Below, piece after piece: positions 11,005 to 55,430 of a stretch of 64,000 nucleotides of DNA. The notes below the pieces were generated by a model. That model had not been told where the DNA came from. It was given only the letters and a program-made list of their open reading frames with translations, and did not search any database. The number at the start of each line of letters is the position of its first letter. Positions within the stretch are counted from its first letter, which is position 1. Origin of the DNA: Cymbidium sinense (Eukaryota > Streptophyta > Magnoliopsida > Asparagales > Orchidaceae); contig CM038215.1 in NCBI GenBank assembly GCA_021442155.1, positions 273,523,014-273,587,013 of the forward strand. The letters are read 5' to 3'. The position numbers were made by a program, and so were the translations under genes.

Positions 11005-11275
11005 TAAGAATCCATAGAACCTTGACGATGAGAACATCACCCTCAACTAGGCTCAATCTAGATCTAGTAGTGGAGGTGAAAGTGACGATGATGGTTATCG
11101 CATTGGTGGTGGGGGATTTGGAGGTGCTGGTGGATTTGAGGGTGGTGGTTATGGATGCAGGAGGAGCGACGAAGGTTCTGAGTGGTGGTGATAGATGGAG
11201 AGATGGGGATCGATGGTGGATCCGTACCACAGAGGCTAGGGTGGTTCGATGGGAACTCTGACTGAAGAGCGGCCA
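11005..11275 (+). pseudogene. GRP retro-fragment, coding part only
   Basis: This copy begins with the decayed RRM end (the NG-x-NLD block, then the NITINQAQ block) directly after CCTAAACGCTAAG. It continues into the glycine-rich tail (GGGGFGGAGG, then Asp/Arg-Gly words). It stops near the original stop codon and the 3'UTR is absent: GCGGCCA is followed at once by AACCCTAGAG and array repeats. The frame is broken by substitutions and small indels. It is the only copy in the window that lacks the whole 3'UTR, so it was either deleted later or joined by recombination. The parent family (glycine-rich RNA-binding proteins with one N-terminal RRM) binds RNA in plant nuclei or organelles; this copy cannot. 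Confidence 0.8.
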
Positions 11276-14200
11276 AACCCTAGAGCGTAAGCCTAAACCA
11301 CAAATCCTAAACCCAAAACCTTAAACCCTAGGAAGCTAAAAACCTAAACTAAATAAAACCTAAAAAAACCTAAACAAAAATAAAATAATAAAATAAAAAC
11401 CTAAACTAAAACCTAAATGTAAAGCTAAACCTAAAAAGAAAATAAAATAACAAATAAAAATAAGACTAAAATAAAATAAATAAAAACATAAACTAAATAA
11501 TTAAAAACTTAAATAAAATAGAAAGCAAACCTAAAATAAAAATAAAATAAACCTAAAATAAAATAAAATAAAAACTAAATAAAACATAAACCTTAAAAAA
11601 AACCTTTACAAAATACCTAAACCCTAAACTAAAAAAAACTAAACCTAAAATAAAAATAAAATAAACATAAACCTTAACTAAAATAAACTAAACCAACAAA
11701 AATAAAACCTAAACCTAAACCTAAACTCTAAATAAAATAAAATAAACTAAAAATAAACCTAAACCAAAACTTAAAAAATAAAACCTAAAAATAAACCTGA
11801 ATAAAACCTAAGCGTGAAACCTAAAAAAAATAAAATAAAACCTAAACCTACATAAAATAAAAAAATAAAACTATAAGAAATAAACCAAAACATAAATATA
11901 AAAATAAAAAATAAACTAAAATAAAAAACCTAACCTAAAATAAATAAACATAAAATAACTAATCTAAACTAAATAAAAATAAAAATACACATAAATAAAA
12001 ATAAAAAATAAAAAAAACTAAATAAACCTAAATCTACTATTTTACTTATTTAAAAAATAAAAAAAATAAAAGAATAAAAAATAATAAAGTAAAAAACCCT
12101 AAACCCTAAACTCTAAACTCTTAAAGTAATCCTAAACCCTAAACCCTAAACCCTAAACTTTAAGATCATATAAAACCTGAGCCCAACCTTAAAACCCACA
12201 ATCCTAAACCCTACCCTGTACTACAAAAACAAAAAAACTAAATACTAAACCACAAAACTGAAAACATAAAACCTAAACCTAAACTAAATAAAACCTAAAG
12301 ATAAAATAAAACCTAAATCTAAATAAAGATAAAATAAAATAAAACTCAAACTAAAGCCTAAACCCAAACCTAAATCTAAATGTAAATATAAAATAAAATA
12401 AATAATAAAACTAAACTAAAATAAAATAAATGAAACCTAAACTAAAAATAAAAATGAAATAAATCAAAATTAAAAATAAAATAAAATAAAAACTAAAGAA
12501 AATAAAATAAAATAAACCTAAAATAAAATAAAATAAAACTAAATAAAGCCTAAACTTAAAATAAACCTTGAAAAAATAAAAATAAAACCTAAAAAACAAA
12601 AAACCTAAATCAAAAATAAATAAAATAAAATAAACCTAAACCTAAACTAAAATAAACTAAACTAAAATAAATAAAACCTAAACCTAAACCTAAAATAAAA
12701 ATAAAATAAACATAAACCTAAACTAAAATAAACTAAACCAACATAAATAAAACCTAAACCTAAACCTAAACCTATACTCTAAATAAATTAAAATAAACTA
12801 AAAATAAACCTAAACCAAAAGAAAATAAAACCTAAAAATAAACCTAAAATAAAACCTAAAACCTAAACCTAAAAAAATAAAATAAAAACATAAACCTAAA
12901 CAATAAAATAAAAATAAAATTAAACTAAGAAATAAACTAAAACATAAATGTAAAAATAAAAAATAAACTAAAATAAAAAACCTAACCTAAAATAACTAAT
13001 CTAAACTAAATAAAAATAAAAATACACGTAAATAAAAAAAATAAACTAAATAAACCTAAATCTACTAGTTTACTTATTTATAAAAATAAATTAAATAAAA
13101 GAATAAAAAATAATAAAATAAAAAACCCTAAACTCTCTAATCTAAACCACAAACCTCAAAACCCTAAACTTTAAAATCATAAACCCTAAAACTACCACCA
13201 AAAACCCTAATCCCTAAAACCTAAAACATGCCCTAAAACATAAACTAAAACACTAATCCACAAAAACAAGTGAAAACATAAAACTAAATAAAACCTAAAA
13301 ATAAAATAAATAAAAAAACCTAAATCAAAATAAAATAAAATAATAAAATAAAATAACCCAAATTAAAGTCTAAACCCAAACCTAAATCTAAATGTAAATA
13401 TAAAATAAAATAAATAATAAAATCTAAACTAAAATAAAATAAATAAAAGCCTAAACTAAACTAAAAAAATTAAATAAATCAAAAAATTAAAAACCTAAAT
13501 AAAATAAAAAATAAATGTAAAATAAAATTAAAATAAACTAAACTAACATAAATAAAACCTAAACCTAAAATAAACTAAACCTAAACTCTAAACAAAATAA
13601 AATAAATTAAACTAAAAATAAACTTAAATCTCAGCCTAAAAAAATAAAAACCTAAAACTTAAACCTAAAAAAAAGAACCTAAACCTGAACCTAAAAATAA
13701 TAAATAAAACCTAAACATAATAAAAGAAAATAAAAATAAAACTAAAATAAAAAAATAAACACAAACCTAAACCTAAACCTAAAAAATAAACTAAAATGAA
13801 AAACCTAAATTAAAATAAATAAACTAAAATAAATAAAAATAAAAATAAGCACCTAAATAAAAATAAATAAAATAAAATAAACTAAAATAATAATAAATAA
13901 ACTAAATAAAATAAATAAACATAAACCTATTGGTTTACTTAATTTACAAAACCATACCACTGACTGCAACCTACTGAGCCACAACCACTGACCCCCACTC
14001 TTAATCCAGGCCCAGGCCACCCCAAACCACTGACCACCCCAGGCCCTAGGCCTACCATACCTAAAACTTCTAAAACTAAATCTGGGCCACTGAGCTAAAT
14101 CCTGAGCCATGAGGCCAAACTAAACTGACCAACCACTGGCTGCCCAGGCCTGAGCCACTGAGCCCTGAGCCCTGGAGCCTAAATCCTAAACTGTGGATCA

Positions 14201-15155
14201 TGGCCACAAGGCCCCAAAGACCTCCCTAAAGGCTGAGCCCAAACCCTTGGCTGCTGAGCCATGAACCTGATCACTGAGCATAGGCCCTGAGCTATAAACC
14301 ATAGCCATACCTGAAACTGTCCAGGCCTGATCCTGGGCCCTAACTCTGACCTGACCTACCATGGACTCTAGATACCACTGGGCCACCAGGCCACACTGCT
14401 ACCTAAAAAGGCTACTAAATAAAACCTAAAATAAGATAAATAAATGACCTACCTAAATGGTTTTAAAAGATGGGATAAAACTGAGCTAAAATCTGGGCCT
14501 CAAAATAAGATAAAATAAAATAAATCTAAAATAAAATAAACACTAAATAAACCTAAATAAACCTAAAATAAATTAAAGAATAACCTCCCTAAACTAAAAT
14601 AACTTTAAAATAAAATAAAATAAACCTAACTATAAAATGAAAAAAGATAAACTAAACCCACTAAAATAAAATAACTAAAACTTAAACCTAAACTAATAAA
14701 TAAAACCCTAAAATAAATGCCTAAAGTCTAAACCTAAAATAAAATAAAACCTAAACCTAAATCTAAAATAAAAAATAAAACCTTAACAAATTAAAATAAA
14801 TAAACTCAAACTAAAAATAAACCTAAACCTAATGATAACCAAAATAAAACTTAAACTATACTAAATTGAACTAAAATAAATAACTAAATAAACTAAACCC
14901 ATGGGTTTGCTTTGTTTAAAAAACCCCAAACCCTAAATCCTAAACCAAACCACTACCCACTAACCTACTGCAACTGCTGATCTACACACTAAACCCAACC
15001 TAAACCCTAAACTCTAAAACCCTAAACTCTAAATCCTAAACCCTAAACCCTAAACCCCACAAACCTAAAACTAAACACCCTCCAGCTAAACCCAAAACCT
15101 AAACCCTCTCATAAACCCTAAAATGTACAACCCTAAACCTTAAACCCTAAACCCT
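11276..15155 (+). repeat. Degenerate telomere-like array
   Basis: This stretch has the same C(0-3)TA(3-5) grammar as the left array. Junction motifs (TTTACTTA plus A runs) lie near 12040, 13068, 13932 and 14904, giving units of about 0.9-1.0 kb, shorter than in the first 7 kb. CCCTAAA-rich blocks are at 12090-12200, 13120-13260 and 14920-15150. A G/C-shifted tract (13940-14420) is listed separately. No gene is visible. Confidence 0.9.
13940..14420. repeat. G/C-shifted tract (CTGAGCC/CCAGGCC words) in the array
   Basis: For about 480 bp the sequence is built from words such as CCACTGA, GAGCCCTGAGCC and CCAGGCC, bounded on both sides by TAAA-type repeats. It starts right after a GTTTACTTAATTT junction (13932). 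Minus-strand open frames at 13853-14110 and 14198-14386 (Gln/Trp/Gly-rich) come from this composition and match no family I know. Confidence 0.55.
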
Positions 15156-15644
15156 CATAATGGGTAGAACCTTGGCGATAGGAACATTACCGTCAACTAG
15201 GCACAATCTAGATCTAGCTGTGGAGGCAAAGGCGAAAGTGGCAATTTTCGAAGGGGTGCAGGGGGATCGAGAGGTGCTGGTGGATATGGACGTGGTGGTC
15301 AGAGTAGTGGCTATTATTGAGGTAGGAGGAGCGATGAAACTTAGAGCCATGGTGGTAGTGGAGGGAGAGGTCAGGGATATGATGGTTCATCCCGCTACTC
15401 GAGAGGTGGGCATAGTTCTGATGGGAACTAGAGAAACTAAAGAAGGATCAATTTGATCTACTGCTTATCGAACTGCATCTTTACAGTACAGATGGTTCTA
15501 CTTATCTAGAATTTTGATTTGCTCTATGGGTGCTCATTTTTGATCGATGTCATCAGTTATGTCTTAGAAAACATGGGGTGCTACTTGGTTGATGAAATCA
15601 AAAAGGAAAAATGTTGAATCTGACTTTATTTTCTATTAAAAAAA
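15156..15644 (+). pseudogene. GRP retro-fragment with 3'UTR and oligo(A)
   Basis: This is a near full-length copy of the recurrent fragment. It opens in the RRM C-terminal end (AATGGG, then the NLDDRNIT/NQAQSR block), then the Gly-rich region, then the RYSRGG...SDGN terminus, then about 230 nt of 3'UTR, then A7 at 15638-15644 that runs into a CCTTAAACCCTAAAC array. In the GRP frame there are stops in the Gly-rich part (TATTATTGAGG and AAACTTAGAG). No intron is present and the 5' part of the gene (RNP1/RNP2) is missing. An open +1 frame of 98 codons exists but is a by-product of GGN codons. Confidence 0.85.
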
Positions 15645-17068
15645 GCCTTAAACCCTAAACTAAAATTTAAAACCTAAACCAAAAACCTAAACCCTAAATC
15701 ATAAACCCTAAACCCTAGACCCTAAAACCTAAACCCTAAACCCTGAAAACCCTAAACCCTAAATAGTAAACCTTAAACCCTAAACCCTCAACACTAAAAC
15801 CCACAAGCCAAACACCTAAACCTTAAACCCCAAAACCCTAAACCCTAAATAATAAAACCTACAACCCTAAACACTAAACCCTAAACCCTAAACCATAAAC
15901 CTTAAAAACCTAAAAACTTAAATTTAAACTAAATAAAACCTTAAAATAACATAAATAAATAAAACCTAAACCTAAAGAAAATAAAATAAAATAAAAACCT
16001 AAACCTAAGCCTAAACCTAAAAATAAAATAAAATCTAAACTAAAATAAAATAAATAAAAACCTAAACTTAACTAAAAATAAAATAAACCTAAAATAAAAT
16101 ACTAAATAAAATAAAAACTAAACCTAAAATAAATAAATAAACCTAAACTAAAATAAAAACTAAATAAAAAGCTAAACATAAAAAATAAATCTAAAAATAA
16201 ATTGAAAATAAAACCTAAACGCTAAACTAAAAAAACCTAAACCTAAAATAAAAATAAAATAAACCTAAACTAAAAATAAACTAAACTAAAATAAATAAAT
16301 TTTAAACCTAAATGTAAAATAAACTAAACCTAAACGAGTAAATAAAATTAAAAAAAAATAAAATAAACTAAACCTAAACCTAAACTTAAAGTAAAAAATA
16401 AAACCTAAAATAAAGCTAAAATAAAACCTAAAACCTAAACCTAAAAATTAAAATAAAAAAAAACATAAACCTAAAATATCAAATAAAACCAAAACCAAAA
16501 AGAAAAATCAAATTATACTAAAATAATAAACCTAAATTAAATAAACTAAACTAAATAAAAATAAAAATAAACTTAAATAAAAATAAATAAATAAATAAAA
16601 GATAAACTAAATGGCTTAAACTATTGAGCTTGATTTTAAAAACATAAATAAAACCAACCCCTCCTAAAAGGCCATAAAATCCTAGCCCTACTCTAGGCCA
16701 ACAAGCCTGATCCATAAACCCTAGGCCCCAATCTGGCTGACCTGACTCAAACCCTAAACTCTCCCTAAACAACCTTACTAACCCAGGCTCTGACCCAACC
16801 CTGACCCTGATCCTGATCCTGAGCACAAATCCTGGGCCCTGAGCCAAAATTTAACAAACTCTAAGCTAAACCTAACCCTAAACCACTGAGCCAATAACAA
16901 ACCAAACCCTAAAATTGTAAACCTAAACATAAAACCTAAACCTAAACCTTAAACCCTAAACCCTAGACCTCAACTAACTACACCTTAAACCCAAACTAAA
17001 CAAAACCTAAAGTAACTAAATAAATTAAAAAGTAAATTGAAACCCTAAAAGCTAATAAACCTAAACCC
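15645..17068 (+). repeat. Degenerate telomere-like array
   Basis: A CCCTAAA-rich part (15650-15910) follows the oligo(A), then an AT-rich part to about 16620, then a decayed junction (GAGCTTGATTTT near 16625), a G/C-shifted tract (16630-16860) and CCCTAAA again. The order oligo(A), CCCTAAA, TAAAATAAA, junction, CCCTAAA, GTAACTAAATAAA (about 17011), GRP is the cleanest complete unit in the window. Confidence 0.88.
16630..16860. repeat. G/C-shifted tract (CCTGATCC/CCCTGAGCC words)
   Basis: This is a short tract with words such as CTGATCCTGATCCTGAGC and CCAACAAGCCTGATCC. It lies immediately after the decayed junction motif, at the same position in the unit as the tracts at 5843-6085 and 13940-14420. 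It holds part of a chance minus-strand frame (16551-16847). Confidence 0.5.
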
Positions 17069-17543
17069 TAAGAATGGGCTGAACCTTGATCTCGAGAACC
17101 TCAATGCCAACCAGGCTTAGTCTAGATCTCATGGTGGCGGCAAAGGTGGAGGCAGTGTTCATCGTAGTGGTGGTGGGGGATCTAGAGGTGCTGGAGATAT
17201 GGAGGTAGCACTTATGGAGGCGGGAGGAGCGATTGAGGTTACATCCATAGTGGTGGTGGAAGGAGGGATCAGGGATTTGATGGCAGATCCCGTTACTCAA
17301 GACGAAAGGGTGAGTTTGATGGGAACTAGAGAAACTGAAGAACAGCCAATCCGATCTATTGCTTAAGGAACTCTATATTTATAGTAGAGACTGTTCTATT
17401 TATCATGGGTTTTTGATTTGCTCTATGTGTGCTCATTTTTATCTATGCCATCGTTTGTGTCTTAGAAAACTTGGTGTGCTACTTGGTTGATGAAATTGAA
17501 AAGAAGAAATGTTAAATCTAAATTTAGTCTCTATTAATAAAAA
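17069..17543 (+). pseudogene. GRP retro-fragment with 3'UTR
   Basis: The copy starts at AGAATGGGCTGAACC after CCCTAAACCCTA and ends with CTCTATTAATAAAAA before CCATAAACCTAAAACCC. The Gly-rich tail contains several frameshifts (the GGNGGN register changes around 17150-17260). The 3'UTR is well kept, including GTGTCTTAGAAAACTTGG and GAAAAGAAGAAATG. The junction word GTAACTAAATAAATT lies ~60 bp upstream, at 17011. Confidence 0.85.
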
Positions 17544-18636
17544 CCATAAACCTAAAACCCTAAATCCTAAACTAAAACATAAATCCTAAACCTAAAACTT
17601 AAACCCTAAACCATAAACCCTAAACCCTAAACCCTAAACCCAAAACAAAAAAATCCTAAACACTAAACACTAAACCTAAATCCACAAACCTAAATCTACA
17701 AAACCTAAACCCTAAACCCCAAACCATAAACCCTAAACCATAAAGTCTAAACTTTAAACCCTAAACCCTAAATCCCAAAAAGCTAAACCTAAACCAAATA
17801 AAATCTAAAAATAAAATAAATAAAAAAATCCTAAACTTAAATAAGATAATAAAATAAAATAAATTTAAACCTAAACTAAAACCTAAATCTAAACCTAAAC
17901 CTAAAATAAAATAAAATAATGATAAAACTAAACGAAAATAAAATGTATAAAACCTAAACTAAACTAAAAAAATAAAATAAACCTAAAAATAAAAGCCTAA
18001 ATAAAATAAATATTGAACCTAAAATAAAATAAAATAAATCTAAAAAAAATAAAATAAAACCTAAACCTAAATCTGAAAATAAAATATAAAATATAAAAGA
18101 AAATAAAAATAAAACTAAAACAAAAAATAAACCTAAACCTAAACCTAAACTTAAACAATTAACTAAATTAAATAACCTAAACAAAAATAAATAAACTTAA
18201 AATAAATAAACTGAACTAAATAAAATTAAAAATAAACTTAAATAAAAATAAAATAAAATAAACTAAAATAAATAAAAAACTAAAGTCAATAAACCTAAAC
18301 CCTAAGAATCTTAACCCTAAATTCAAAACCAAAAACACAAACCCTAGGCAAACCCTAAACCATTAACCAAACTTACAACCCTACTACAAGCCCTGATCCT
18401 AAGCTCTCTAAGCCCTAAACCTAAACTTGGACTAAACACAAACCCTAAACCCAAAACCCAAACTAAACCATAAACCCTAAATCCTACCCTTAACTAAAAC
18501 CCTAATAACTAATCCAAAACCTTAAACCCAAACCCTAAACCCTAAAACCCACCACAAGCCTAAACACTAAACCCTAAACTCTAAACCCTAAACCTTAACC
18601 ATAAAACCTAAACCATAACCTTAAACCCTAAACCAT
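17544..18636 (+). repeat. Degenerate telomere-like array up to the LINE insertion
   Basis: CCCTAAA-rich (17550-17790), then AT-rich (17790-18300), then CCCTAAA-type again (18300-18636) with some CCCTGATCC words near 18395. The array stops abruptly at AACCATAATCCCC, where the LINE 5' end begins. Confidence 0.88.
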
Positions 18637-18699
18637 AATCCCCAATCATTTCACTTTAGATCTCTCTTGCGAATTCATTTCATTAACGATTAATTCCTT

Positions 18700-19684
18700 T
18701 TTGCTATGGGTGCTTTATTTGGTTGACCATTATGAATTGATCAGGAAATGAATACGAAATCTCATCCTTCAGTGGCTTGAATTCTTGTTGAATTGGACAT
18801 TACCAAGAAACACCCAAAAGAAATCTACTTGGGATCTGAGAATTACGGTTAAATGCCAAGAATTGAATTTGAAAATTTCCCTGTCTTTTGTTCTCACTAC
18901 AAAATCCATGGGTATGATAATTCTGAATGTTTCATTCTTCATCCTCACATAGAAAAAATATCCCTGTTAAGGAAACTTCTATTCCTAACCCTAGGCTGAC
19001 CATTGTTAAATATCAAAAAGGTACTTCAAAACTAAAAGAATTTTTTGAAAGTTTGTAGTAAGGTTATTTTACTTATTACCTCTTCTGTGCAATTGAAGGC
19101 TTCTAATATGGATGATAATAGTTTTCCTAAACTTTTTGATGATGATTCTATGTCCTCTGATTCGATCTCTGCATCCTTACTGGCTTTGATTGATGAAAAT
19201 GAAGCTTTAATTGAAAATCTTAATGTGGATATTAATGTTATGCATCATTCAAATTCTATGGAGAATATGGTTTTGGTTCCTCATGATAATCAAGTTGCAA
19301 AACCAAATTCTAATTTTCAAGTTCAAGATGATTTAAATTCTCAAAAAGATTTGGTTTTGTCTAATTATTTGGGTATTGAAGAGGAAGGGCTGGGTGTTCA
19401 CACTTTCCTTCTTAATAAATTTATTTCTACTCCCTCTCTCGCTATACCTAATGCTCATTTTCCTTTAAGAATTTCTAATATCTTGGAAGAAGGAGAACTC
19501 ACTTCTATCTGAGACTTCTCTAAATCTGACTAATGTTACTAAATCCTTCTTAGATGATGATTATATGGGAAAAAATGGTTTCCAAACTTATCATGCTAAT
19601 AAGAGAAAGAATGTTAAAAATTTCCCTCCTAAATTGTCAAAAAATACTAGATTTTCTGCGACCTCCCTCTCCTCTCTTAATTAA
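18700..19684 (+). pseudogene. LINE ORF1 (DUF4283/zinc-knuckle type), decayed
   Basis: ORF1 of plant L1-like LINEs makes a nucleic-acid-binding protein that packages the element RNA. The region 18785-18960 reads, with stops, as the ELDITKKHPK and FENFPVFCSHYKIHG blocks followed by SECFILHP. This is the segment of DUF4283 proteins that leads into a CCHC knuckle; the second Cys is a Tyr here and the His of the knuckle is altered. An open stretch at 19045-19512 follows (acidic, Ser/Asn/Asp-rich, 155 codons), and after one frameshift it continues as a Lys/Asn-rich tail to a stop at 19682-19684. ORF2 starts ~28 bp later, the usual spacing. It is frameshifted and not functional. Confidence 0.7.
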
Positions 19685-19712
19685 CCTTTTCTTAACCCCA
19701 TTTTATTTCCTT

Positions 19713-20434
19713 ATGTTTAATTTTATTGTTTGGAATGTTAGAGAAATCAGTACACTCTCTATTCATAACCATATTAGAAATCTTTGTAGAGTTTATATAT
19801 TTCTTTACTTTTTGTTATGGAGCCTCTTATTCATGCTAATAAAATTAACCATGTTGCTAGAATGATCGGTTTCAATAAATTTTTCTCTAATGTTAGTAAT
19901 AAGATTTGATGTTTTTGGAATAATTTTGTTGATATTTCTATTCTTGATGATTTTCAATTAGTCAACGCTCAAATCTCTTAAGGTGATTATTGTGTTTTGG
20001 GCTCTTTGTTTATGCATCTTGTAATAGATCCGTAGAAATCTTCTTTATTATTTGAGGAATTTTGCTACATCAATAAACCTGGTTTGTTGGAGGGGATTTA
20101 AACATTATTTTATTCTCTTCTGAACAAAGTGTTGGTTGCTCTCCTAATATTCATTCCATGGAAGAATTTTGTAATATGATCCTTGATTGTAATTTGATTG
20201 ATATTGGTTTTAGGGCTTCTAATTATACTTGGTAAAACTCTAGAATTTGGTAAAAGGTTAGATCAAATTCTTTTTAATACTCATTGGATTACTCAATGAC
20301 CTATTACTTATATAGATCATTTAAGTAGAACCTTGTTTGATCATTCTCCTCTTTGGTTTCTATTAAAGATACTTATAATATATTAAAGAATTTCTCTCCT
20401 TTCATTTTAGAACATGTTGATTCAAAGATATTAA
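19713..20434 (+). pseudogene. LINE ORF2, apurinic-like endonuclease part, decayed
   Basis: The probable ORF2 start is the ATG at 19713 (MFNFIVWNVR, the usual opening of plant LINE endonucleases). Later blocks, across frameshifts: a GDxN-like block near 20090-20110 (GGDLNIILF); a long readable piece to about 20230 ending in IDIGFRASNYTW; RLDQILFNTHW near 20255-20290; and FDHSPLW at about 20335-20357, which holds the catalytic-type SDHSPL motif. The endonuclease nicks target DNA to prime reverse transcription. The frame is interrupted at 20434/20435 by the 7.5-kb block just before a Trp-rich linker that resumes at 27963. Confidence 0.8.
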
Positions 20435-21180
20435 TGTTGACATCACTTTTGGAGTGAGTTCTCAACCTCCTCTTCTTAGACCTTGGGATCTTCTAGACAC
20501 TAGACTTCCTTAGCCATAAGACACTTCTAGTGATTAGTGAACACTTAACCTAAACCTAAAGACATAGAAGGGTTAATCATAGATTAGACTATGCCTTAGG
20601 AATTAAGGAGACTCACTCTATAGCCTAAATCAAATTGTTCACCTTCTCAAACCAAACCTCAAATTCAATTCAAATATAAAAATCCAAATTCAAATCCTAA
20701 TCAAATGATTGAAGCCCATGATTGAATTGAAAATCAAAATCCTTCATAAGACCCATGATTTATCTTATGGACTTAGCCTTAGCCAAATCCAAATCAATCC
20801 AAAAATTAATTTTCAAAGATCAACTCAACCCTTCAATCAATTTATCAAATTGAAACTCAAACTAAACTTCAAATCATGATCCAAACCTAAATCCAAATCC
20901 AAATCAAAACTTTAAGCCAATTTCATGGACTTAGCAAGTTCAACCTAAAACCAATCAATCCTTCAATCATCATTCAAAGTTTTACATATAATCACAATCA
21001 ATATCAAGTAAATCATTCATATTAGAATTCAAAATCAAATGCAATTTTAGTCAAGTTTAAGACTAAAATTAAATCAAATCATGATTTGAATGTTAAGTCA
21101 CTAATATGTATAAAAAAGAAAATGATAATAACAATAACAAATTTTAATTTAACATACACAATCCATTTGAAATCTAAAAT
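20435..21180 (-). repeat. End segment of block A, matching the right end of block B
   Basis: The words GAGTTCTCAAC, CACTTCTAGTGATTAG, GGTTAATCATAG and CTATAGCCTAAA occur in the same order, inverted, at 47246-47030. After about 20650 the match weakens into A-rich CAAATCC/AATCAA words that correspond to the TTTGGATTTG words of block B. No gene is seen. Confidence 0.7.
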
Positions 21181-21185
21181 GAACT

Positions 21186-21233
<48 letters not shown>
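21186..21233. repeat. (AC)n(AG)n microsatellite
   Basis: A perfect AG run of about 19 units is preceded by a short AC run. It has no counterpart at the matching place in block B that I can see. Confidence 0.95.
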
Positions 21234-21236
<3 letters not shown>

Positions 21237-21289
21237 AACCAATTAAACATCAAACAAAATTTATTCAGAATTAAATCAAAATAAAAACT

Positions 21290-21640
21290 ATAAATAAATG
21301 TTATATATATATATATTAACCATTAAATCAAAATAATTAATTTATCAAATTATGAATCCATATTATCAACAATTATTAATCATAATTAAAATTATCTTAT
21401 TTGATACACTAACTTATAAATTTTCATTCAATTATTTACTAAAGTTATTAAAATTTTGTAAAACTTTTAAAATCATTTATTTAAAAAAAAATTTAAAGTT
21501 TAAAAAAAAAAGTAAAAAAAACAAAACTTTTAAATGACCTACTCCTTGCTAATTTATGTGATCATGACAACATATAAAAAAATGCAAAGAAAAAAAGAAA
21601 TAAAAAATGGGAACATGGGAGAAGTTTGGGCATGTAAGAC
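21290..21640. other. A/T-rich spacer in block A
   Basis: Very A-rich DNA with a short TA run (21303-21316) and poly-A stretches around 21480-21520. No gene is seen; the open frames here are composition artefacts. Confidence 0.6.
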
Positions 21641-21651
21641 CAAGTTGGCAT

Positions 21652-21674
21652 ATCTCTCTCTCTCTCTCTCTCTG
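21652..21674. repeat. (CT)n microsatellite
   Basis: A perfect CT run of about 11 units, ~400 bp upstream of the peptide deformylase fragment. In plants CT runs are common in 5'UTRs, so it may belong to the captured gene's leader; this is inference. Confidence 0.9.
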
Positions 21675-22075
21675 ATAGCAAAAAACACACAATACAATAA
21701 AAAAAAAAATGAGGCCTTGTCCTTTTCTCATCTCCTCAAGAGAAGCCAAAGCCCTCTCATTCCTACTTCACTTGAGAGCTGCTCCCATCCCATCCGTCCT
21801 AAAAAATAAAAAAAATAAAAATATCTGAAAGCACCTCTCCTCCTTGGATGCAAAGTAAAGCAACTCCCTCATGTTCCCATCTCTTCCAACCAACCAAGCC
21901 TTGTCAAGCAAAGCATCCATGCCTCCCTCATCCTCCAGTAGGTGACCTCTTCCCTCACTTTCTCCAAAATTGAGACACACAGTAGCATGAAGTAGGTAGC
22001 TGATTGAGACTTTTTTATCCCAACTAGGCCCCATAAATCTGCGCTACCTAGACACATGAGACAAATTTTTATTGA

Positions 22076-23093
22076 TTGATCGAACCATGCCACTCACATA
22101 GCTTGGCTGCCAGTGAACTATCCTTCTATGCCTCCATCCTCCTTCATAAAGACTGTGTCTTTCTAGCTCTAAGCATTGGTCTAATTCTTCATTGCTTCTC
22201 CCATTGCATCGCTGGTCATAGAAGAACCCCTTCAAAAGTCTTCGCTGGATGGTTCTATGGATTTAGCATGATGAAAGAATCCCTGATTAAAATTGTCAAG
22301 GTCAGCGATATGGTCCTCCATGAGCCCACCATTGAGGTCTCCTTGGAGGAGATCAAATCAAAGAAGATCCAGAAGATCATAGATGACATGATTGCAGTTA
22401 TGCGGAAGGCTCCTGGTGTCAGCTTCACTGGTCCACAAATTGATATTCCTATGAGGGAAATAAGCTGAATGACCATGGAATAGGTGCAAGTATTGATGCA
22501 AAAAAGTATGCCAGGGGTTTAGTTTCCATGAAATCCATCCTCAATGATCTATACAGAAATTCTAAATAAAAGGCACTGATGTTAGCTCCGAGGGTTCTTT
22601 AATGATCCATAGTGCTCGCTTCTAGAGGATTTTGAACCTAATATCTCAATGCCCTAACACATCATATATAATATGATTTGAGATTATTATTCTTGAAGAC
22701 ACAAAGGAATACATTAGCTACGCTCTTAGAAGTGAAATTGATGCACAAGACCATCGACCTTTAATCTCTCGGTAATAATTAATCCAAAGCTTCAAAAGAA
22801 GGGAATAAAAAATAGCTTTGTTCTTTGAAAGATGTTTAAGCTTGATGGATTTAGAGCTATGGTAGAGCAAAGATCACAGTGAAGGTTACAGTCACGATCA
22901 TTTTGGTCAACCTATCAAAATTGCTTTTTGGATGGAGTGATATTATACATGAGTTTGAGTTTGATCATCTAAATGAGACTATATATGTGGATAAGATTGT
23001 TCTAGAACATTTAGAAAAGTCAAGAATTTTGATTTTCCTCTTCCAAGAAGATGCCAAAAGCCGTGTGTCTATGAGCAAGTGAGGAGGAAGCAA
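22076..23093 (+). pseudogene. PDF1A: Peptide deformylase 1A pseudogene captured in block A
   Basis: Plant PDF1A removes the formyl group from the first Met of proteins made in mitochondria and plastids. Readable pieces: AGWFYGF (about 22239), SDMVLHEPTIEVSLEEIKS, then IQKIIDDMIAVMRKAPGV and GPQIDIP (to 22465). After a ~220-bp insert come IIILEDTKEYISY (22686 on), NPKLQKKG, the motif-2 relic ERCLS (family EGCLS) and the motif-3 relic HEFEFDHLNETIYVDK (22947-22994, family HECDHLDGTLYVDK). The tail around 23010-23080 matches the family C-terminus in broken frames. The metal-binding Cys and His positions are still recognisable, but several stops, frameshifts and the altered motif 1 (GLAAPQ region) make it inactive. 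The insert 22466-22685 ends in AG right before the next coding block, so it may be a retained intron, meaning capture of genomic DNA and not of mRNA. The N-terminal 50 codons from 22076 could be a decayed transit peptide. Confidence 0.85.
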
Positions 23094-23129
23094 ACCATAG
23101 GAGCAAAGAAAAAGAATGCTAGCTAAAGT

Positions 23130-24885
23130 ATTGATATGACCAACAAGCACTCAATAGGGCTTTGTTTTCTTCCAAATGAAGCCACCTCTTGGTCAATCCA
23201 TCACATTAAATGAGGAGGTATAATTCTTAAATTCTTAGAAAGCCTTAGGATCTCATGTTTGATTGTTGAATGCTAGCATCATTAGGATCCAACCTTTAAA
23301 GCATGTGCACTTTACTTTTTAATCATTTTGGTGAGAGTTTAGAGACAAAAGTAAGACCATTCATTTTATGTGTTTGAATTGAATTTTTTTGATTAGGTCA
23401 AATGACATAGTGATTTGATTGCACATAATAAGCCATGATTAACTCTTGGGCCATTTGATCTTTGATCAAATAATCATGATTAATCCAATATTTTATTTAT
23501 TATTAAATTCAATGAGATCTAAAAAAAGAGTTAATCAATCTTTAGAATAAAAAAAGAAAGAAATAATATGTGATCAAACAAAATCCAAAAAAATGTACAA
23601 ATTAAATTATCATAAAATTAAAGTAAAACTTTGTATAAAAAATTAACTAAACCAATAACATTATAAATATTATAATCAAATATAAAAATTTGTATGGACA
23701 TAATTTATTAATGTATAAAAAAATCAATTCAATCCATAATTATATATGTTCATCCTAAAAGTCAAAAATAAATTTTAGTTATGAGACATATTCTTAATTA
23801 TAATTAATTTAACTATTAATTACAATTGACTATGCTTTATTTGATTAGAAATTCATATAAAGTATTGGAGGAAAATAATTAGGATATCTTTCTCATTTGG
23901 AGGATAATTAATCAATTTGGCATATTAAGTAAGAGAAATTAATTAATTAATTAATGATTTGATTAATCAAATTAAAATTACAATCATATCTGATCTTCAT
24001 TAATTAATTCATGTGTAGTTCTTTAGGTGTTTAAAAGCCTCAAGAGAGTTAATGAAAATATGATTTATCCATATGTGTGGGAAAATAATAAAAGTAATTA
24101 ATTAAGTTTCTTAATCTAATTAATCAATAATTATGTGCTAATTTCATTAGGCTCTTTCATTTCTTAGTATCATTGCAAGTTATTTTCCATGCATATCATG
24201 TTAGCTCATAATTATTTAATTAATTACTTTAAGGTAACATATAGGTAAGTTAATAGTAGATTTAATGCATATTATAACCTAATTAATCCATAAAATCCAC
24301 TTAATTACATTTTATTAAACAAAATCAATTCACAAACATGGGAATGGGTTAGGATCAGCAAACTTTCCTTCATTTCATTAAATCAAATTGAAACATAAAA
24401 GTTAAAAGTGACATAAGAAACTTTGGTTTCCTATTATGATTTTATTTGATATGATTATCCTTATGAATTAATTTAATTGAACGAAATCATGTGTTTTGTT
24501 TAGTTATTCTTCTCCAATCATATTAAATGTTGTATGTCATTTGATTCATGCATTCATATTTTGAAAAATTAACTAAATCAAATGGTTCCCTTTATGCCAA
24601 GATTGCATGTGTTGATCTAATTTAATATATGTGTGGCTATTATCACTATTATATCAAAGTTATTTTCAAAAGTTTATAAGTAAACTATTATATTTGGAGT
24701 GATAATAGTTATAAATATTTTGAAGCTTGCATGTGTCTATGGCTTAGAACATGTGATATGGAGTTCTCTTTCTTTAGTCTATATGGATTTACATAAAGTT
24801 TGAATGTTAACATGTGTATAGTCCATTTGAAAAGGACACAACATTTGTTTGGATTCATTCCTATGTATTTCTATGTTAGAATTTA
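23130..24885. other. A/T-rich part of block A without genes
   Basis: AATTAA-rich DNA. From about 23440 on it matches block B inverted (for example GTAATTAATTAAG at 24094-24106 against CTTAATTACTTTTA at 43302-43315, and CTTTAGGTGTT at 24019 against the inverted word at 43370-43385). The cargo difference between the two copies therefore ends near 23400. No coding signal is seen. Confidence 0.6.
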
Positions 24886-24888
24886 GAT

Positions 24889-48064: not shown

Positions 48065-50000
48065 TAGAATAAACTAAATGATAAAACATAAACTAAAATA
48101 AAATAAACCTATTAAACTAAAAAAATAAAATAAATAAATAAACCTAAAATAAAATGAAACCAAACTTAAAATAAAAATAAAAAATAAAATAAAATAAAAC
48201 TAAAATAAAACCTAAATAAAAATAAACCTAAAAAATAAAAAAATTAAAAACCCAAATAAACTAAAAAAACCACAAAATAAAATGAATAAAATAAAATAAA
48301 CTAAATAAAAAAAAAAAATAAATAAAATAAAATCAACCAAAAATAAACTAAATGTAAACAAAAAATAAAACCTAAAATAAACCTAATAAAAACAAACCTA
48401 AACCTAAAAATAAAATAAAATAAACAAATCTAAAAATAAAAAATAAAACCTAAACTTAAAAAAGGAAATAAAAATAAAATTAAACTAAAAAGATAAACAT
48501 AAATCTAAAGTTAAACTTAAAAAATAAACTAAAATAAAAAATGTAAACTTAAATAAATAAACCAAAAATAAATAAACTAATCGAATAAAAATAAAAAACA
48601 AACCTAAATAAAAATAAATAAATAATATAAACTAAATAATCCTACTGGCTCTTTGCTTATTAAAAAACCAAACCCAATCCCATCTAATACCACAAAACAA
48701 ATAATCTTAATTAACTAAAATCTGAGCTTAAATAAAATAAAATAAAAAAATAAAAAAACCACAGACCTAAAACCATACCCTAAAACCTAAACCCTACCTG
48801 ACCCTACACTACCACCCCTAACCTGATCCAGACCTAAAACCCTACCTACCAAAACTGAGCTAACATTAGGCCTGAGCCCTGAGCCTAAACCACACATGAG
48901 CCCTGACCCTACCTAAATCTAAACTACTAAACTAAACTAAAAAAGCCAAACCTTAAAACACTACCCTGAACCAAACTAAATGAGCCTTAAACCTAACTAA
49001 ACCCTAAACCCTAACTGAGCCACAAACTAAACTAAACCCTAAAACCTAAAAAACCTAAACCCTAAAATAATGAAACCTAAAAAAATAAATAAAACCTAAA
49101 ATAAATAAAATAAAATAAAATAAATAAAATAAAAAAAAACTAAAAATTAATAAAATAAAAATAAAAACTAAACTCAATTAAATAAATGACTATAAACTAA
49201 AATAAAATAAACCTAAAATAATAAACCTAAATAAAATAAAAACTAAATGTAAAATAAAAAAATAAAAATTAAAAACTAAATAAAACTAAACTTAAAAATA
49301 AACTAAAAATAAAACCTAAAAACCTAAACTAGAAAAAAAATAAAACCCAAAATAAACAAAATAAAATAAACTTAAACCTAAACTAAAATAATCTAAACTA
49401 AAATAAAAAAAAAACCTATACCTACTAAATTAAACAAAACATAAATCTAAACAATAAAATAAAATAAACTAAAAAACATAATACCTAAAAAAAACATACA
49501 AATGAAACTAAAATAAAAAAAATAAAACCTAAAACAAAAATAAATAAAATAAAACCTAAACCTAAAATAAGAAATGAAACTTAAACCTAAAAAATAAAAA
49601 TTAAACTAAAAAAATAAACTTAAACATAAACCTAAAAAAACTAAACTAAATAAAGACTTAACTAAAATATATAAACCTAAAATAAATAAACTAAACTAAA
49701 TAAAAAAAAAATAATCTAAATAAATATAAAAATAAAATAAACTAAAATAAATAAAAAATAAACTAAATAAACCTAAACTCTGCTTAGTTAATTTTTTTAA
49801 AAACCCTAAACCTAAAACTAACACAAAACATAAAAACCCTACCACAAACCTAAACCATAAAAGCATAAACCCTAAAACCAAATCTTAAATCCAAAACCCT
49901 AAACCTAAACCTAAACCCTAAACTAAACCCAAACCATAAACTAAACTAAAGTAACTAAATAAATTAAAAATAAATAAAACCTAATAAACCTAAACTTAAA
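48065..50000 (+). repeat. Degenerate telomere-like array, very AT-rich
   Basis: TAAAATAAA-dominated (48065-48640), a decayed junction (CTGGCTCTTTGCTTATTAAAA near 48645), a mixed tract with CCCTGAGCC words (48770-48920), AT-rich again (49060-49780), then the junction TTAGTTAATTTTTTTAAA near 49784, CCCTAAA-type, and GTAACTAAATAAATT (about 49951) before the next GRP. Runs of CCC are rarer here than in the left arrays. Confidence 0.88.
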
Positions 50001-50416
50001 TAAGATTGGGTAAACCTTGATAAACATCACCATCAACTAAGCTGTCTAAATCTAAAAAAGGTGGTGGTTAAAGGTGGGGATCTAAACTGGTGGATATGGA
50101 GGTGGTGAGTGGTGGTGGTTATGGTGGCTAGGCCAAGATTATAAATGGTGGCGTGGGATAGATCAAAATATGATGGTGGATCCACTACTAGAAGGGGTGG
50201 TTTTGATGGAATGAAACTAAAGAATGACCAAATCGATCCCTTATGGAACTATGTCTTTATAATAGAGATTCTAGTTATCTATGGTATTTGATTTGATCTA
50301 TGCATGCTCAATTTTGATCTATGTTGTCACTTGTGTCTTAGAAAACTTGGTGTGTTACTTGGTTGATGAAATTGAAAAGAAGAAATGTTGAATCTCAATT
50401 TATTCTCCTAAAAAAA
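50001..50416 (+). pseudogene. GRP retro-fragment with 3'UTR and oligo(A)
   Basis: It starts at AAGATTGGGTAAACCTTG. The coding part is shortened by many 1-10 bp losses; GGTGGATATGGAGGTGG and GATGGTGGATCC are still visible. The 3'UTR is nearly complete, ending CTCCTAAAAAAACC at 50405-50418. Clearly the same family as 38173-38660. Confidence 0.83.
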
Positions 50417-50662
50417 CCTAAATCCTAAACCCCAAACCAAAAAACACTAACTATAAACTCAACCCCAAACCCTAAACTATAAAAAACTTTAAACCCTAAA
50501 CCCTAAACCCTAAAAAGCATAAAACCAAACCCTAAACCACTAAACCTAAATCCTAAACCTAACTAAACACCAAACCTAAACCACCAAACCTAAAGTAACT
50601 AAATAAATAAACATAAAGTTATACCCTTAAACTTAAATTAACATAAACTAAACCTAAACCCT
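50417..50662 (+). repeat. Short telomere-like array
   Basis: Only ~245 bp of CCCTAAA-type DNA separate two GRP copies. The AT-rich block and the GTTTACTTAATTT junction are missing, while GTAACTAAATAAATAAA (50592) upstream of the next GRP is kept. This is a deletion derivative of the full unit. Confidence 0.88.
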
Positions 50663-51098
50663 AAGAATAGGCTAAACCTTGATGACATGAACATCATCAA
50701 AGACTTAAGATCTCATGGTGGATAAAAGGGAGGTGGAGGTTATCGCTGAGGTGGTGATCTAGAGTGCACTAGATATGGAGGTGGTGGTGGTAGTGGTGGT
50801 TATGGAGGTAAAGGTTCGAGGTTACCTATGGTGGTGGCAAGGAGAGATAGATATGATGGTGGATCCACTACTAGAGGGTTGAGGTGGTTGATAACTAAGA
50901 AACAAGAATATACTGATGCTTATGGAACTATGTCTTTATAGTAGAAGGTTATAGTTATATAGGGTTCTTGATTTGTTCTATGCATGCCCATTTTATAACT
51001 ATGTCATCACTTATGTCTTAGAAAACTTGGTGTGTTACTTGGTTGATGAGATCGAAAAGAAGAAATGTTGAATCAGAATTTGTTCTCTGTTAAAAAAA
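50663..51098 (+). pseudogene. GRP retro-fragment with 3'UTR and oligo(A)
   Basis: It starts at AGAATAGGCTAAACC. The Gly-rich part keeps GGTGGTGGTGGTAGTGGTGG and TATGATGGTGGATCC with deletions. The 3'UTR terminus is almost identical to the copy at the left window edge (GAAAAGAAGAAATGTTGAATC) and ends in GTTAAAAAAAATCC at 51088-51100. Confidence 0.83.
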
Positions 51099-51871
51099 AT
51101 CCTAAACCCTAAACCCTAAACCGTAAAACCCTAAACCCTAAAACCCTAAATCCAAAACCCTAAAAACCCAAAACTAAAGCCCAAAATAAAAATCTTAAAC
51201 TAAACTAAAATAAAATAAAAATTAGACTCAACTAAAAAAAATAGACCTAAACCTAAACCTAAACATTAAAAATAAACAAAAATAAAAAACCTAAATTAAA
51301 ATAAGTAAACTTAATATAAATAAACTAAGCTAAATAAAAATAAAAAATAAACCTAAATAACAATATATAATAAAACTAAATAAAAATATAAATTAAACTT
51401 AAAAAAATAAAAATAAAAATAGGCTAAAATAAGTAAAAAAAAAAGAAACTTACTAAATAAACTAAAATATTTACTTAAATAAAAAACTAAACCCTAAATC
51501 CTAAACCAAAACCACTAAAAAAATAAAAAAAACTAAACCAAAAATATAAACTAAACCTAAACCCTAAACTAAAAAACCACAAACCCTAAAACTAATAAAC
51601 TCTAAACCTAACTAAAGCATAAACCTAAACCCTAAATCTTAAACTAAAAAAACTAACTCCAAACTCTAAACCACTAAATTAAAAACTAAACTAAACCTAA
51701 ACTTAAACCCTAAACCTAAATCTTAAAAAAATACCACTAAATAAACCTAAACCCTAAACTCTGAATTAAACCCTAAACCCTAAAAAAACCCAAACCCTAA
51801 AAACTAAATGATAATAACTAAATAAATTAAAAAATATTCCTAAACCATAGTAAACCTAAATCTAAACCAAA
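51099..51871 (+). repeat. Degenerate telomere-like array
   Basis: CCCTAAA-rich (51100-51190), AT-rich (51190-51465), junction ATTTACTTAAATAAAA near 51468, CCTAAA-type (51485-51810), then AATAACTAAATAAATTAAAAA (51815-51835) before the next GRP. Confidence 0.87.
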
Positions 51872-52255
51872 TGAATGGGTAGAAATGATAGGAACATCAC
51901 TACTAACTAGTTAAGTGGAGGTGAAGTCAGTGGCGATTATAGTGGTGGTGATAAGTCTGGAGGTGGTTGGGTGCAGGTGGTTATGGAGGTCGATGGAGGT
52001 TACATCCATGGTGGTGGCAAAGAGATCATAAACATGATGGTATGAGAGGTAAATAAATAGAGAAACTAAAGAATGACCAATCCAACTTATGGAATGTCTT
52101 TATTAGAGATAGTTAAGTTATCAGTTTTAATTTGCTCTATGATCATTTTTTATTTATGTTGTCACTTGTGTATTAGAAAATCTAGGGTGTTACTTGGGTG
52201 ATGAAATTGAAAAGAAGAAATGTTGAATCTGAATTTGTTCTCTCTTAAGAAAAAT
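51872..52255 (+). pseudogene. GRP retro-fragment, strongly deleted coding part
   Basis: It starts at ATGAATGGGTAGAAATG. The coding part is reduced to about half, with GGTGGTTATGGAGG and CATGGTGGTGGCAAAG left. The 3'UTR end is still close to the consensus (GATGAAATTGAAAAGAAG, then GTTCTCTCTTAAGAAAAA). It shows the contrast between a decayed coding part and a kept 3' end most clearly. Confidence 0.8.
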
Positions 52256-52571
52256 ACCAAAAACTCTAAACCCTAAACTAAAACTTGAATTTCAAACCTA
52301 AAACCTAAGCCCTAAACCCTAAATCCTAAACACTAAAAAATGAAATAAAAATGCAAACTGAACCATAAACCCCAAATAAACTAAATACTAAACCCTAAAC
52401 CTAAACCAAAATAAAAACCTAAATAATAAAACTAAACCTAAAAGACCTTAAACCCTAAACTCTAAACCCTAAACCTAAACCCAAAATAAAAACCTAAACA
52501 CCAACCTAAAACTAAAGTAACCAAATAAATTAAAAAGAAACTTAAACCACAAACTTAATAAACTAAAAACC
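52256..52571 (+). repeat. Short telomere-like array
   Basis: CCCTAAA/CCTAAA words over ~315 bp, with AAAGTAACCAAATAAATT (52513) near the right end. There is no AT-rich block, as in 50417-50662. Confidence 0.87.
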
Positions 52572-52909
52572 CAGAATGGAAACATAACATCACCATAAAC
52601 TAACTAGATCTAGCTAAAAATATTATAGTGGTAGGGATCTAGGTGAGTGGATATGAAGGTGGTGAATAGTGGTGGTTTTGGAGGTGGGAGGAGATTAAAC
52701 TAAATGGTAAGTAAAATCTAAGGTGATGGGAATTATAGAAATTAAAACTAATAAATATAGAAACTGTCTTTATAAAAGAATAGTTATCTAGGGTGTTTGA
52801 TTTGCTCCGTGCTCATTTTTTTATCAATAAAATTAGAAAACTTGGTATATACTTGGTTGATGAAATCAAAAGAAGAAATATTGAATTTGAATTTGTTCTC
52901 TAAAAAAAT
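52572..52909 (+). pseudogene. GRP retro-fragment, strongly deleted
   Basis: Recognisable by CATCACCATAAAC, CTAGATCTAGC, GTGGATATGAAGGTGGTG, TTATCTAGGGTGTTTGA and GAAATCAAAAGAAGAAATA, ending CTCTAAAAAAATAAAAC. Large parts of the Gly-rich tail and the middle of the 3'UTR are lost. Shortest copy with an oligo(A) end (338 bp). Confidence 0.75.
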
Positions 52910-53673
52910 AAAACTTAAATCCTAAACTAAACTTGAACCCTAAACCTAAACCTAAACCCAAAATAAAATATTAAAAACTAAATAAACCCAACTCTCCAAC
53001 CCTACATAAATAAAACCCTAAACCTAAACTAAATATAAATACCCAAAAAACCAAAATAAAATACTATAACAAAAATATAACCATAATAAACCTTAAACCC
53101 TAAATTAAATAAATAAACTACTAAAAAAACCTAAACTTAAACTAAATAAAACCTAAATAAATAAATAAAATAAAATATAATAATAAATAATACACTAAAC
53201 CTAAATAAACCTAAATAAATAAAAAAAAATAAACTAAACTAAATAAATAAATAAAACCTAAATACTAAAAATAAAACCTAAAATAAAAACTAAACCAAAA
53301 ATAAAAAAATAAAATAAACCTAAAATAAATAAAATAAAACTAAATAAAACCTAAACCTTAAAATAAACTAAAAAAAAATAAACTAAACCTAAAGAAAAAA
53401 AAAAAAAAAACTAAACTAAAATAAATAAACTAAACTACATAAAAAATAAACTAAATAAATAAAAAAATAAAAAATAAACTAAAACTATTTAGTTAATAAA
53501 AAACAAAACTAAATCCTAAATAAACTAAAAACCTAAACCCTAAATCTAAACCTTAAACTAAACCATAAATAAAAACCCTAAACCCAAACTAAACTAAATC
53601 TTAAACCCACAAACCCAAAATAAACCCAAAACTAAACCTAACCTTAAACTCCAAACCCTAAACCCTAAACCCT
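52910..53673 (+). repeat. Degenerate telomere-like array
   Basis: CCCTAAA-type (52910-53110), AT-rich (53110-53480) with an A-rich run at 53395-53411, decayed junction TATTTAGTTAATAAAA near 53487, CCCTAAA-type to 53673. Confidence 0.87.
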
Positions 53674-54090
53674 AGAATGGGTAGAACCTGAAGGCAAACA
53701 TCACCATAACTAGGCTAATGTAGATATGGTAAGCAAGGTTAGGCAACATTTAGTGAAGGTGGTGGGGATCTGATATGGATATGGAGGTGGTGGTTAAAGT
53801 GATTATGGAGGTGGGAAGAGCGATGGAGGTTCTCTATGGTGGTGGCGAGAGGAGAATGGGATATGATGGAATCCTACTAGAGGTGGGGGTGGATAAACTA
53901 GAAGAAGACCATGATTGATCTGGTTATGGAATTATGTCTTTAAGAGATGGTTCTACATATCTAGAATTTTCTTTACTTTGTGGGTCTGATTTTTATATAT
54001 GTCACTTGTGTCTTAGAAAACTTGGGGTGCTACTTGGTAGATAAAATAAAAAAAAAAAAAAAAAAATGTTGAATTTGAATTTGTTAAGCT
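53674..54090 (+). pseudogene. GRP retro-fragment with partial 3'UTR
   Basis: It starts at AGAATGGGTAGAACC. Gly-rich words GATATGGATATGGAGGTGG and GGTGGTGGCGAGAGG are visible with deletions. The 3'UTR contains an expanded A run (about 54050-54066) in place of GAAAAGAAGAA, and then TGTTGAATTTGAATTTG before the array. Confidence 0.8.
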
Positions 54091-54949
54091 AAAATAAACC
54101 TAAACCAAAAACTAAAAGTTAAACCCTAAACCTAAAACTTAAACCCTAAACCCTAAACCCTAAATTAAACATAAACGCTAAACCCTAAAAATATAAAAAC
54201 TTAAATCTAAACTAAATAAAACCTAAACATAAAATAATTAAAAAACCTAAACTTAAATAAAATAAAAAATATAATAAAATAAAACATAAATAAACCTAAA
54301 AAATAAAACCTAACTAAAAACAAAACCAAAATAAAAAATAAAATAAACCAATAAAATAAACTAAACCTAAACTAAATTAAACTAAATTAAATTAAATACT
54401 AAACCTAAACTTAAAATGAACTAAAAATAAACTAAAATAAAATAAAATAAAATAAACCTAAACCTAAACTAAAAATAAAACCTAAAAATAATCCTAAAAT
54501 AAAACCTAAACCTAAACCTAAAAAATAAAATAAAAAACCTAAACTAAACCTAAAAATATAAAAAAAAATAACCTAAAATTAAAATAAAAATAAACTCAAC
54601 TAAAATAAACCTAAACCTAAAAATAAATTAAAATAAAACCTAAACTAAAATAAATAAACCTAAAATAAAAAAATTAACTTAAATAAAGAAAATAAAATAA
54701 AATTGAAATAAATAAAAATAAACTAAATAAACTAAACTATAAGTTTACTTAATTTAAAAAAAATTAAACTAAACCCTAAAATAACCCTAAACCATCTAAA
54801 CCTAAAACCTACCCTAAACCCTAAAATTGTAAAAATAAACCTAAACCATAAACCCTAATCCATAAACCCTAAACCAAAAACCTAAACCTAAAACCTATGA
54901 CCCAAAATCAAAACTAAAACACTAAACCCTAAACTAACCCTAAACCCTA
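54091..54949 (+). repeat. Degenerate telomere-like array
   Basis: CCCTAAA-type (54100-54200), AT-rich (54200-54735), junction GTTTACTTAATTTAAAAA at 54743, CCCTAAA-type to 54949. The complete unit order is kept here. Confidence 0.88.
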
Positions 54950-55430
54950 AGAATTTGCATAACCTTGATGGTAAGAATCTCCATTAACTAGCCTTAGTCT
55001 AGATCTAGCAATGGAGGAGAAGGTAAAGGAGTGATCATCATAGAGGTGGTGGGGGATCTGGAGGAGCTTATGGATATGGAGGTGGTGGCCGGATCAGTTG
55101 TGGTTATTAACGTGAGACAAGCGACGGAGATTACAATTGTGGTGGTGGTGGAGGGAGAGATCAGGGATATGATGGTGGACCCCGCTGCTCAAGAGGTTGG
55201 GGTGATTCTAATGAGAACTGGAGAAACTAAAGAATGGTTCGATCTGATCTACTACTTATGAAACTATGTCTTTATAGTAGATACATGACTTATCTAGGGT
55301 TTTGACTCTATGGGTGCTCATTTTTATCTATGTATTCTTGTGTCTTAGAAAACTTGGCATCTTTGCTTGGTTAATTAAATCAAAGAAAAAAATATTGAAT
55401 CTAATTTGTTCTCTATTAAAATAAAAAAAA
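54950..55430 (+). pseudogene. GRP retro-fragment with 3'UTR and oligo(A)
   Basis: The best-preserved copy right of the gap. CTAGATCTAGCAATGGAGG and GGTGGTGGGGGATCTGGAGG open the Gly-rich tail; GGAGATTACAATTGTGG and GATATGATGGTGG follow. The stop region GAGAACTGGAGAAACTAAAG and most of the 3'UTR are kept, ending CTATTAAAATAAAAAAAACC. Frameshifts break the frame. Confidence 0.85.

Follow-up and report, generated by a model that had tools for sequence, protein, structure and literature searches.

A 64,000-nucleotide stretch of C2 in the orchid Cymbidium sinense (C2:273.52-273.59 Mb; here, the window) contains repeated fragments of a message for a glycine-rich RNA-binding protein (GRP) embedded in a telomere-like higher-order satellite. 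The assembly comprises 3.526 Gb in 2174 contigs; C2 is 306 Mb long, and the window lies >30 Mb from both scaffold ends. The satellite occupies three stretches of the window and is interrupted by a block carrying a decayed L1-type long interspersed nuclear element (LINE) and other repeats (Table 1).

Table 1. Features of the window (positions are those of the whole stretch)
Feature	Position	Strand	Basis or remark
Telomere-like higher-order satellite: AT-rich block ending in GTTTACTTAATTTAAAAAAA, then CCCTAAA-rich block, with or without GRP	1..18636	+	
Satellite, second stretch	33203..39750	+	
Satellite, third stretch, after 100-N gap	48065..55715	+	
GRP copy, 3' untranslated region (UTR) end, cut by window edge	1..74	+	blastn match 1-85
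GRP fragment, 3' UTR lost; conserved AAAGTAACTAAATAAATTAAAAA flank at 10945	11008..11279	+	blastn
GRP fragment, subfamily B, 5' junction CCCTCAT/AATGGG	15160..15647	+	88-92% to 12 best copies elsewhere
GRP fragment, subfamily A, 5' junction CCCTAAG/AATGGG	17073..17552	+	74% to neighbor at 15160
GRP fragment, immediately downstream of LINE-containing block	33237..33668	+	blastn
GRP fragment, 3' end lost	34816..35249	+	blastn
GRP fragment, 5' end disturbed	36150..36621	+	blast match from 36190
GRP fragment	38176..38637	+	blastn
GRP fragment, many internal deletions	50001..50418	+	blast match from 50088
GRP fragment	50666..51099	+	blastn
GRP fragment, many internal deletions	51874..52254	+	blast match from 51919
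GRP fragment, heavily decayed	52572..52902	+	blast match from 52634
GRP fragment	53676..54085	+	blastn
GRP fragment	54953..55427	+	blastn
Block with decayed L1-type LINE (label own to this analysis) and other repeats, interrupting array	18637..33202	+	reverse transcriptase pieces on C-rich strand
RVT_1 piece	28678-28950	C-rich strand	domain search
zf-RVT piece	30289-30543	C-rich strand	domain search
RVT_3 piece	30976-31272	C-rich strand	domain search

The first-pass annotation had placed the same 3' piece of a GRP mRNA at 13 sites and as a tail at position 1. A blastn search of the window with two copies as queries confirmed GRP-like sequence inside all 13 and at 1-85, on the + strand throughout (E-values of non-self matches, 5e-5 to 7e-105). 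At five sites (36158, 50001, 51872, 52572, and 53674) the matches start 30 to 210 bases inside the copy, and the starts of these copies were taken from the alignment and raw words. In an alignment of the 13 window copies with four others, the copies start together behind a CCCTAA-type word, and surviving 3' ends return to the array through an A-rich junction. The 5' break, judged by eye, lies at, or a few bases from, one common position in 13/13 window copies, as first described, but the proposed junction words are less uniform: the word is exactly AATGGG in six copies (15156, 17069, 33234, 34813, 51872, and 53674), and CCCTAAG immediately precedes the start in seven of the 13. The copy at 11005 has lost its 3' UTR (match stops near 11279), and that at 34813 lacks approximately the last 40 bases. 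Essentially all telomere-like words lie on one strand (CCCTAAA, 429; TTTAGGG, 2), the longest perfect CCCTAAA run in the window is four, and the spacing of GRP copies is uneven. All 40 scored genome matches (the best 40 of 8805 candidates, one being the window itself) align from query base 1, i.e., including the junction word. Several copies in the satellite stretch beyond a 100-N scaffold gap (47965-48064) carry many internal deletions.

Among 120 listed proteins of 7615 matches, the closest GRPs to the fragment are those of Dendrobium and Phalaenopsis (scores, 426 and 410; next, 353). A protein search of the assembly, with the best 150 of 96930 candidates scored, located the parent gene, to which the first-pass annotation had looked for a comparison of exon structure, on C13 (C13:36950460-36950846; residues 38-162 of the query). 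All other scored matches start at residues 60-72 (139 matches) or 45-59 (ten); the latter were read as alignment overrun, because the longer ones have lower identity. In the 3 kb read around the gene (locus L029, at ~36.95 Mb), the parent has two exons separated by an 89-base intron with gt..ag borders (L029:1075-1163), and the spliced frame is open from the ATG through GNWRN-stop. The fragment begins at L029:1256-1257, mid exon 2 (query residue 70), and its 3' end lies 196 nucleotides past the stop codon. CCCTAAA was not found in these 3 kb, and AGGGTTT occurs only twice, approximately 400 bases upstream of the fragment and inside the 3' UTR. The possibility, raised at first pass, that the CCCTAAA flanks already stood beside the gene in parental DNA was therefore rejected. 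A single TTAGGGTTT word, which we take to be telobox-like, is located at L029:857-865, approximately 100 bases upstream of the GRP start codon.

A common 5' breakpoint, suggested at first pass as a feature to seek genome-wide, was found in every scored copy. In a DNA search across the 5' border (query L029:955-1300; best 40 of 1062 candidates scored), 39/39 nonparent matches begin at query 300-302 (26 at 302 and 13 at 300), the AATGGG junction, and none extends further 5'. Across the 3' border (query L029:1600-1850; best 40 of 2740 candidates scored), all 39 nonparent matches end between query 140 and 150, with 24 ending at 147, i.e., L029:1746. A set of 20 loci, every 7th row of the 150 scored protein matches (out of 96930), was also aligned with the parent; the 5' break is common to 20/20 and the 3' break, by eye, to 18/20 (L097 and L099 lack it). 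Truncation inside the message, mid exon 2, is thus present in all scored copies of both samples. The consensus of the 20 loci is 91.1% identical to the parent inside the fragment (483 bases), compared with 36% (67 bases) and 42.5% (73 bases) outside it. Common 5' and 3' breaks indicate that all scored copies descend from one retrocopy founder, with no repeated capture; an origin by many independent captures was rejected on the same grounds.

The 3' junction bears on whether the founder passed through RNA. Parent DNA at the break reads TTTGTTCTTTGTTTGATCATTC, and the copies read TTTGTTCT(C/T)TGTT and then A. The column-majority consensus has 14 A after TTTGTTCT(C/T)TGTT, where the parent has TGATCATTC. 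Across 18 of the 20 loci, the 16 bases past the junction contain a mean of 12.2 A; the corresponding mean after TT in 315 satellite controls is 10.0 (p=2.7e-5). The break itself is at the position expected of an mRNA end. An untemplated A-rich tract at a plausible mRNA end points strongly to an RNA step behind the fragment, on evidence that is good if imperfect. The description of a 3' fragment of GRP mRNA inside a telomere-like higher-order repeat, with an A-rich tract behind it that has no counterpart in the parent, is borne out.

The repeat unit extends well beyond the GRP piece. A motif ending in GTTTACTTAATTTAAAAAAA gave 18 fuzzy matches in the window, some by chance, with those listed including matches near 949, 2569, 4162, 7569, 8792, 10030, 10679, 12039, 13067, 13932, and 14904. 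AT-rich blocks compared with one reference block had z-scores of >3 in 15/19 comparisons, 3.0 in one, and 1.7-2.0 in three (word-shuffled controls, 10 shuffles each). Units without GRP are present: blastn with two window copies found no GRP match between 86 and 11003, though the motif recurs there. The GRP-to-GRP unit length is 1.85-1.94 kb in four units (L005, L006, L008, and window 15160-17073). The 1.2-kb non-GRP part of this window unit is 86-93% identical in six of seven units compared (on C133, C7, C1, and C3 and two on C4; z, 23-38 versus word shuffles) and 78% identical in the seventh, an interrupted unit on C7 (L003; z, 13). Tandem kilobase-scale units that are alike between chromosomes, here above shuffles in all seven comparisons, are characteristic of satellite DNA. 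No Rfam match was found at gathering scores.

Relationships among the copies indicate movement of the satellite. The neighboring GRP copies at 15160 and 17073 are only 74% alike, whereas identity of the 15160 copy is 92% with a copy on C133 and 91% with copies on C7 and C1. Because remote copies are closer than neighbors, multi-GRP units must have moved between chromosomes after the subfamilies split. Of 22 matches to the conserved 5' flank, 19 lead into GRP, the exceptions being L013 (an unrelated repeat), L018 (a break into other DNA), and window 18213 (weak). The commonest 5' flank, that of subfamily A, retains AAAGTAACTAAATAAATTAAAAA at many places and has one perfect CCCTAAA in the 59-bp consensus of 20 loci, with a non-telomeric AT segment beyond; the 3' flank consensus has three perfect heptamers in 44 bp. 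The subfamily A flank is taken as the older, since its junction occurs in 20/20 loci of the set and the CAG codon that follows AATGGG in the parent is kept in 13/20.

Two further features of the array were observed. Its right edge (window 55715-55939) joins the same flank as at a locus on C9 (L111; C9:33482665-33483264), with 84% identity over 225 bases, and by eye this flank looks like an old piece of GRP 3' UTR, with another AT-rich repeat after it. In addition, CCTGAGCC- or CCACTGA-like words occur at 13960-14440, 5870-6090, and 48780-48960, where other units have CCCTAAA; these blocks represent a genuine variant or else telomere repeats that were miscalled.

The satellite is abundant. Of 80 random points of 600 bases each on C1-C15, six were in or partly in satellite (7.5%; 95% confidence interval [CI], 2.8-15.6%), judged by word coverage of 0.26-0.67, with a next value of 0.14; GRP was found at one. 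Roughly, and assuming that the density in the window (14 copies in 32.8 kb) is typical, the genome holds about 1.1e5 copies (CI, 4e4 to 2e5). Many GRP copies lie in chromosome interiors. GRP arrays also occur within 10 kb of five of the 20 scaffold ends examined, in mixed orientation (three telomere-like and two inverse). No true telomere was found at the 20 scaffold ends read, where the longest perfect run is five heptamers, and these ends are therefore not known to be real chromosome ends. At one of them (L013; C3:1-10000) lies another type of repeat-like sequence, strongly AT-rich (GC, 0.13).

The LINE in the window encodes pieces of reverse transcriptase but is decayed, and so attests to the presence of the family rather than its activity. 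A second L1-type copy at the start of C15 (L028:1-4720) has the orientation of the window copy and also runs at its 3' end into satellite. The 3' side of the LINE joins the array in both cases, and the array was considered as a LINE 3' tail; this was unsupported, because the LINE stops differ between the window and L028 and because L010, with a single CCCTAAA in 10 kb, also contains the 5' part of the LINE. The LINE-containing block includes a peptide deformylase-like piece at 22076-22468 (Pfam PF01327; E, 7e-9), and sequence like the adjacent 20942-22116 also adjoins an array in L003. An RT_RNaseH_2 piece (61903-62256, - strand; E, 4.9e-9) belongs to a retroelement beside the array.

The arrangement probably arose when one 5'-truncated, LINE-made GRP retrocopy landed in an interstitial telomere-like satellite and was then amplified, which the first-pass annotation had mentioned as the simpler alternative to its own proposal and which is the better explanation. 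A polyadenylated GRP mRNA would have been reverse transcribed by L1-type LINE machinery, the presumed enzyme source, and the cDNA, truncated mid exon 2, would have been inserted once into an already degenerate satellite at an interstitial site. The GRP piece would then have become part of the repeat unit and spread by tandem amplification, perhaps through unequal exchange or circles, and by dispersal between chromosomes, with transposable elements interrupting the arrays later. The fragments themselves are presumably without function.

Several observations weigh against this explanation or lessen its support. No target site duplication is demonstrable, as a 9-bp flush match was equalled by 12% of 5000 random satellite pairs in this 7-bp periodic target. 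Only two LINE-array junctions were seen, and the breakpoint searches, which rank by score, covered the best-preserved copies. No true empty site was found among the 22 matches of the conserved 5' flank search, and GRP-less units could therefore be deletion derivatives. The longest A-run per copy is 3 to 13, mostly 6 to 9 (120 bases around the junction; 20 loci), and A-rich words are frequent in the satellite itself, so that the A tract alone is only moderate evidence. The fragment lies wholly in one exon, downstream of the only intron seen in the parent, and intron loss is therefore unusable as proof of an RNA step. The short A-runs, the A-rich satellite, and the single exon would also be expected if a 3' segment of the GRP gene had been captured as DNA without an RNA step, through, for instance, break repair or a DNA transposon. 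Such a capture is unlikely given a 3' break at a plausible mRNA end that is followed by an A-rich tract lacking in the parent. Nanopore sequencing miscalls telomere repeats, and errors of sequencing or base-calling, which short reads could not polish out of such a repeat, might partly account for array degeneracy and GRP decay. The CCTGAGCC-like blocks at 13.96-14.4 and 5.87-6.09 kb would fit such an artefact, as would the use of nanopore reads for one candidate orchid species (PMC11697506), maybe not the species here. However, dozens of places in the assembly show the same breakpoints, flank words, and unit structure, a pattern that base-call errors would not create. This account is very improbable, although such errors may inflate the apparent decay in arrays.

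The first-pass annotation favored priming at a chromosome end, in which a telomeric 3' end would have primed copying of GRP mRNA at the terminus, telomerase would have re-capped the cDNA, and the block would later have been internalized and amplified. Polarity and the pairing of TTT with poly(A) fit this sequence of events, as do the A-rich tract that the parent lacks, the fairly telomere-like 3' flank, and the arrays close to five scaffold ends. The specificity of the L1 endonuclease is TTTT/AA, and a cut of this type at GGGTTT/A on the G-rich strand would give the observed order, so that polarity does not separate the two models. In HeT-A and TART, and in endonuclease-independent L1 insertion at telomeres, the poly(A) side is likewise joined to the inner telomere side. 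The polarity here is the same; unlike in those systems, there is no repeated terminal attachment, the commonest flank lacks fresh telomere repeats, and there is one founder. Repeated attachment would have left different breakpoints, which were not seen among the scored copies. On the side that would have been re-capped, the commonest flank is too degenerate, with its single perfect heptamer and AT-rich segment beyond, to resemble a freshly capped end. This argument assumes that the commoner flank is the older one; the 5' flank of subfamily B is CCCTAAA-rich and, if B were older, would suit end-priming better. Many copies also lie in chromosome interiors, and the scaffold-end arrays are of mixed orientation, with only short perfect runs at the 20 ends. 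Priming at a terminus is unsupported and improbable. A founder that arose at a real chromosome end by overhang priming and re-capping, decayed, was internalized, and then seeded a satellite now forming several percent of the genome is similarly doubtful; in that case, a host message would have helped to found a telomere-derived satellite.

The proposed insertion of a single retrocopy into an existing array has partial parallels elsewhere. Interstitial telomeric-like repeats and telomere-derived satellites are known in plants, for example as pericentromeric blocks in Cycas (PMC9827991; review, PMC8621592). Like these, the satellite of C. sinense forms large nonterminal blocks in which the TTTAGGG-type repeats are degenerate and include variant words; unlike the repeats described in the passages cited, which concern telomeric words, it holds a host mRNA fragment in a kilobase-scale higher-order unit. 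DUX4 in D4Z4 (PMC12376486) is similarly an mRNA-derived copy that joined a repeat unit and was amplified along with it, whereas here a 5'-truncated, decayed piece sits in a telomere-like unit, with copies dispersed among many chromosomes. The rodent telomerase RNA insertions at interstitial telomeric sequences (TERC-ITS) also place telomeric repeats beside a reverse-transcribed piece of cellular RNA; these are insertions at break sites with repeats thought to be inserted as exact hexamers (PMC2246262). In contrast, the RNA here is a protein-coding GRP mRNA and the loci are tandem amplifications. Plant satellites derived from retrotransposon tandem repeats (PMC7004042) are comparable arrays seeded by reverse-transcribed sequence, but the seed here is the message of a host gene.

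No earlier report of a host mRNA fragment in a telomere-like satellite was recognized among the titles and abstract beginnings of open-license PMC papers, and, judged against those papers, the combination and its scale look new. The array seems to represent a known type of event at unusually large scale and not proof of message copying onto chromosome ends. A single host-mRNA retrocopy has seemingly been multiplied, by rough estimate to the order of 1e4 to 1e5 copies, by a telomere-like satellite that forms several percent of a 3.5-Gb genome. The GRP piece is a sequence-unique tag in an otherwise featureless repeat, and satellite spread between chromosomes is thereby traceable unit by unit. 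More speculatively, small RNAs derived from the arrays could meet the intact GRP gene via the common 3' sequence.

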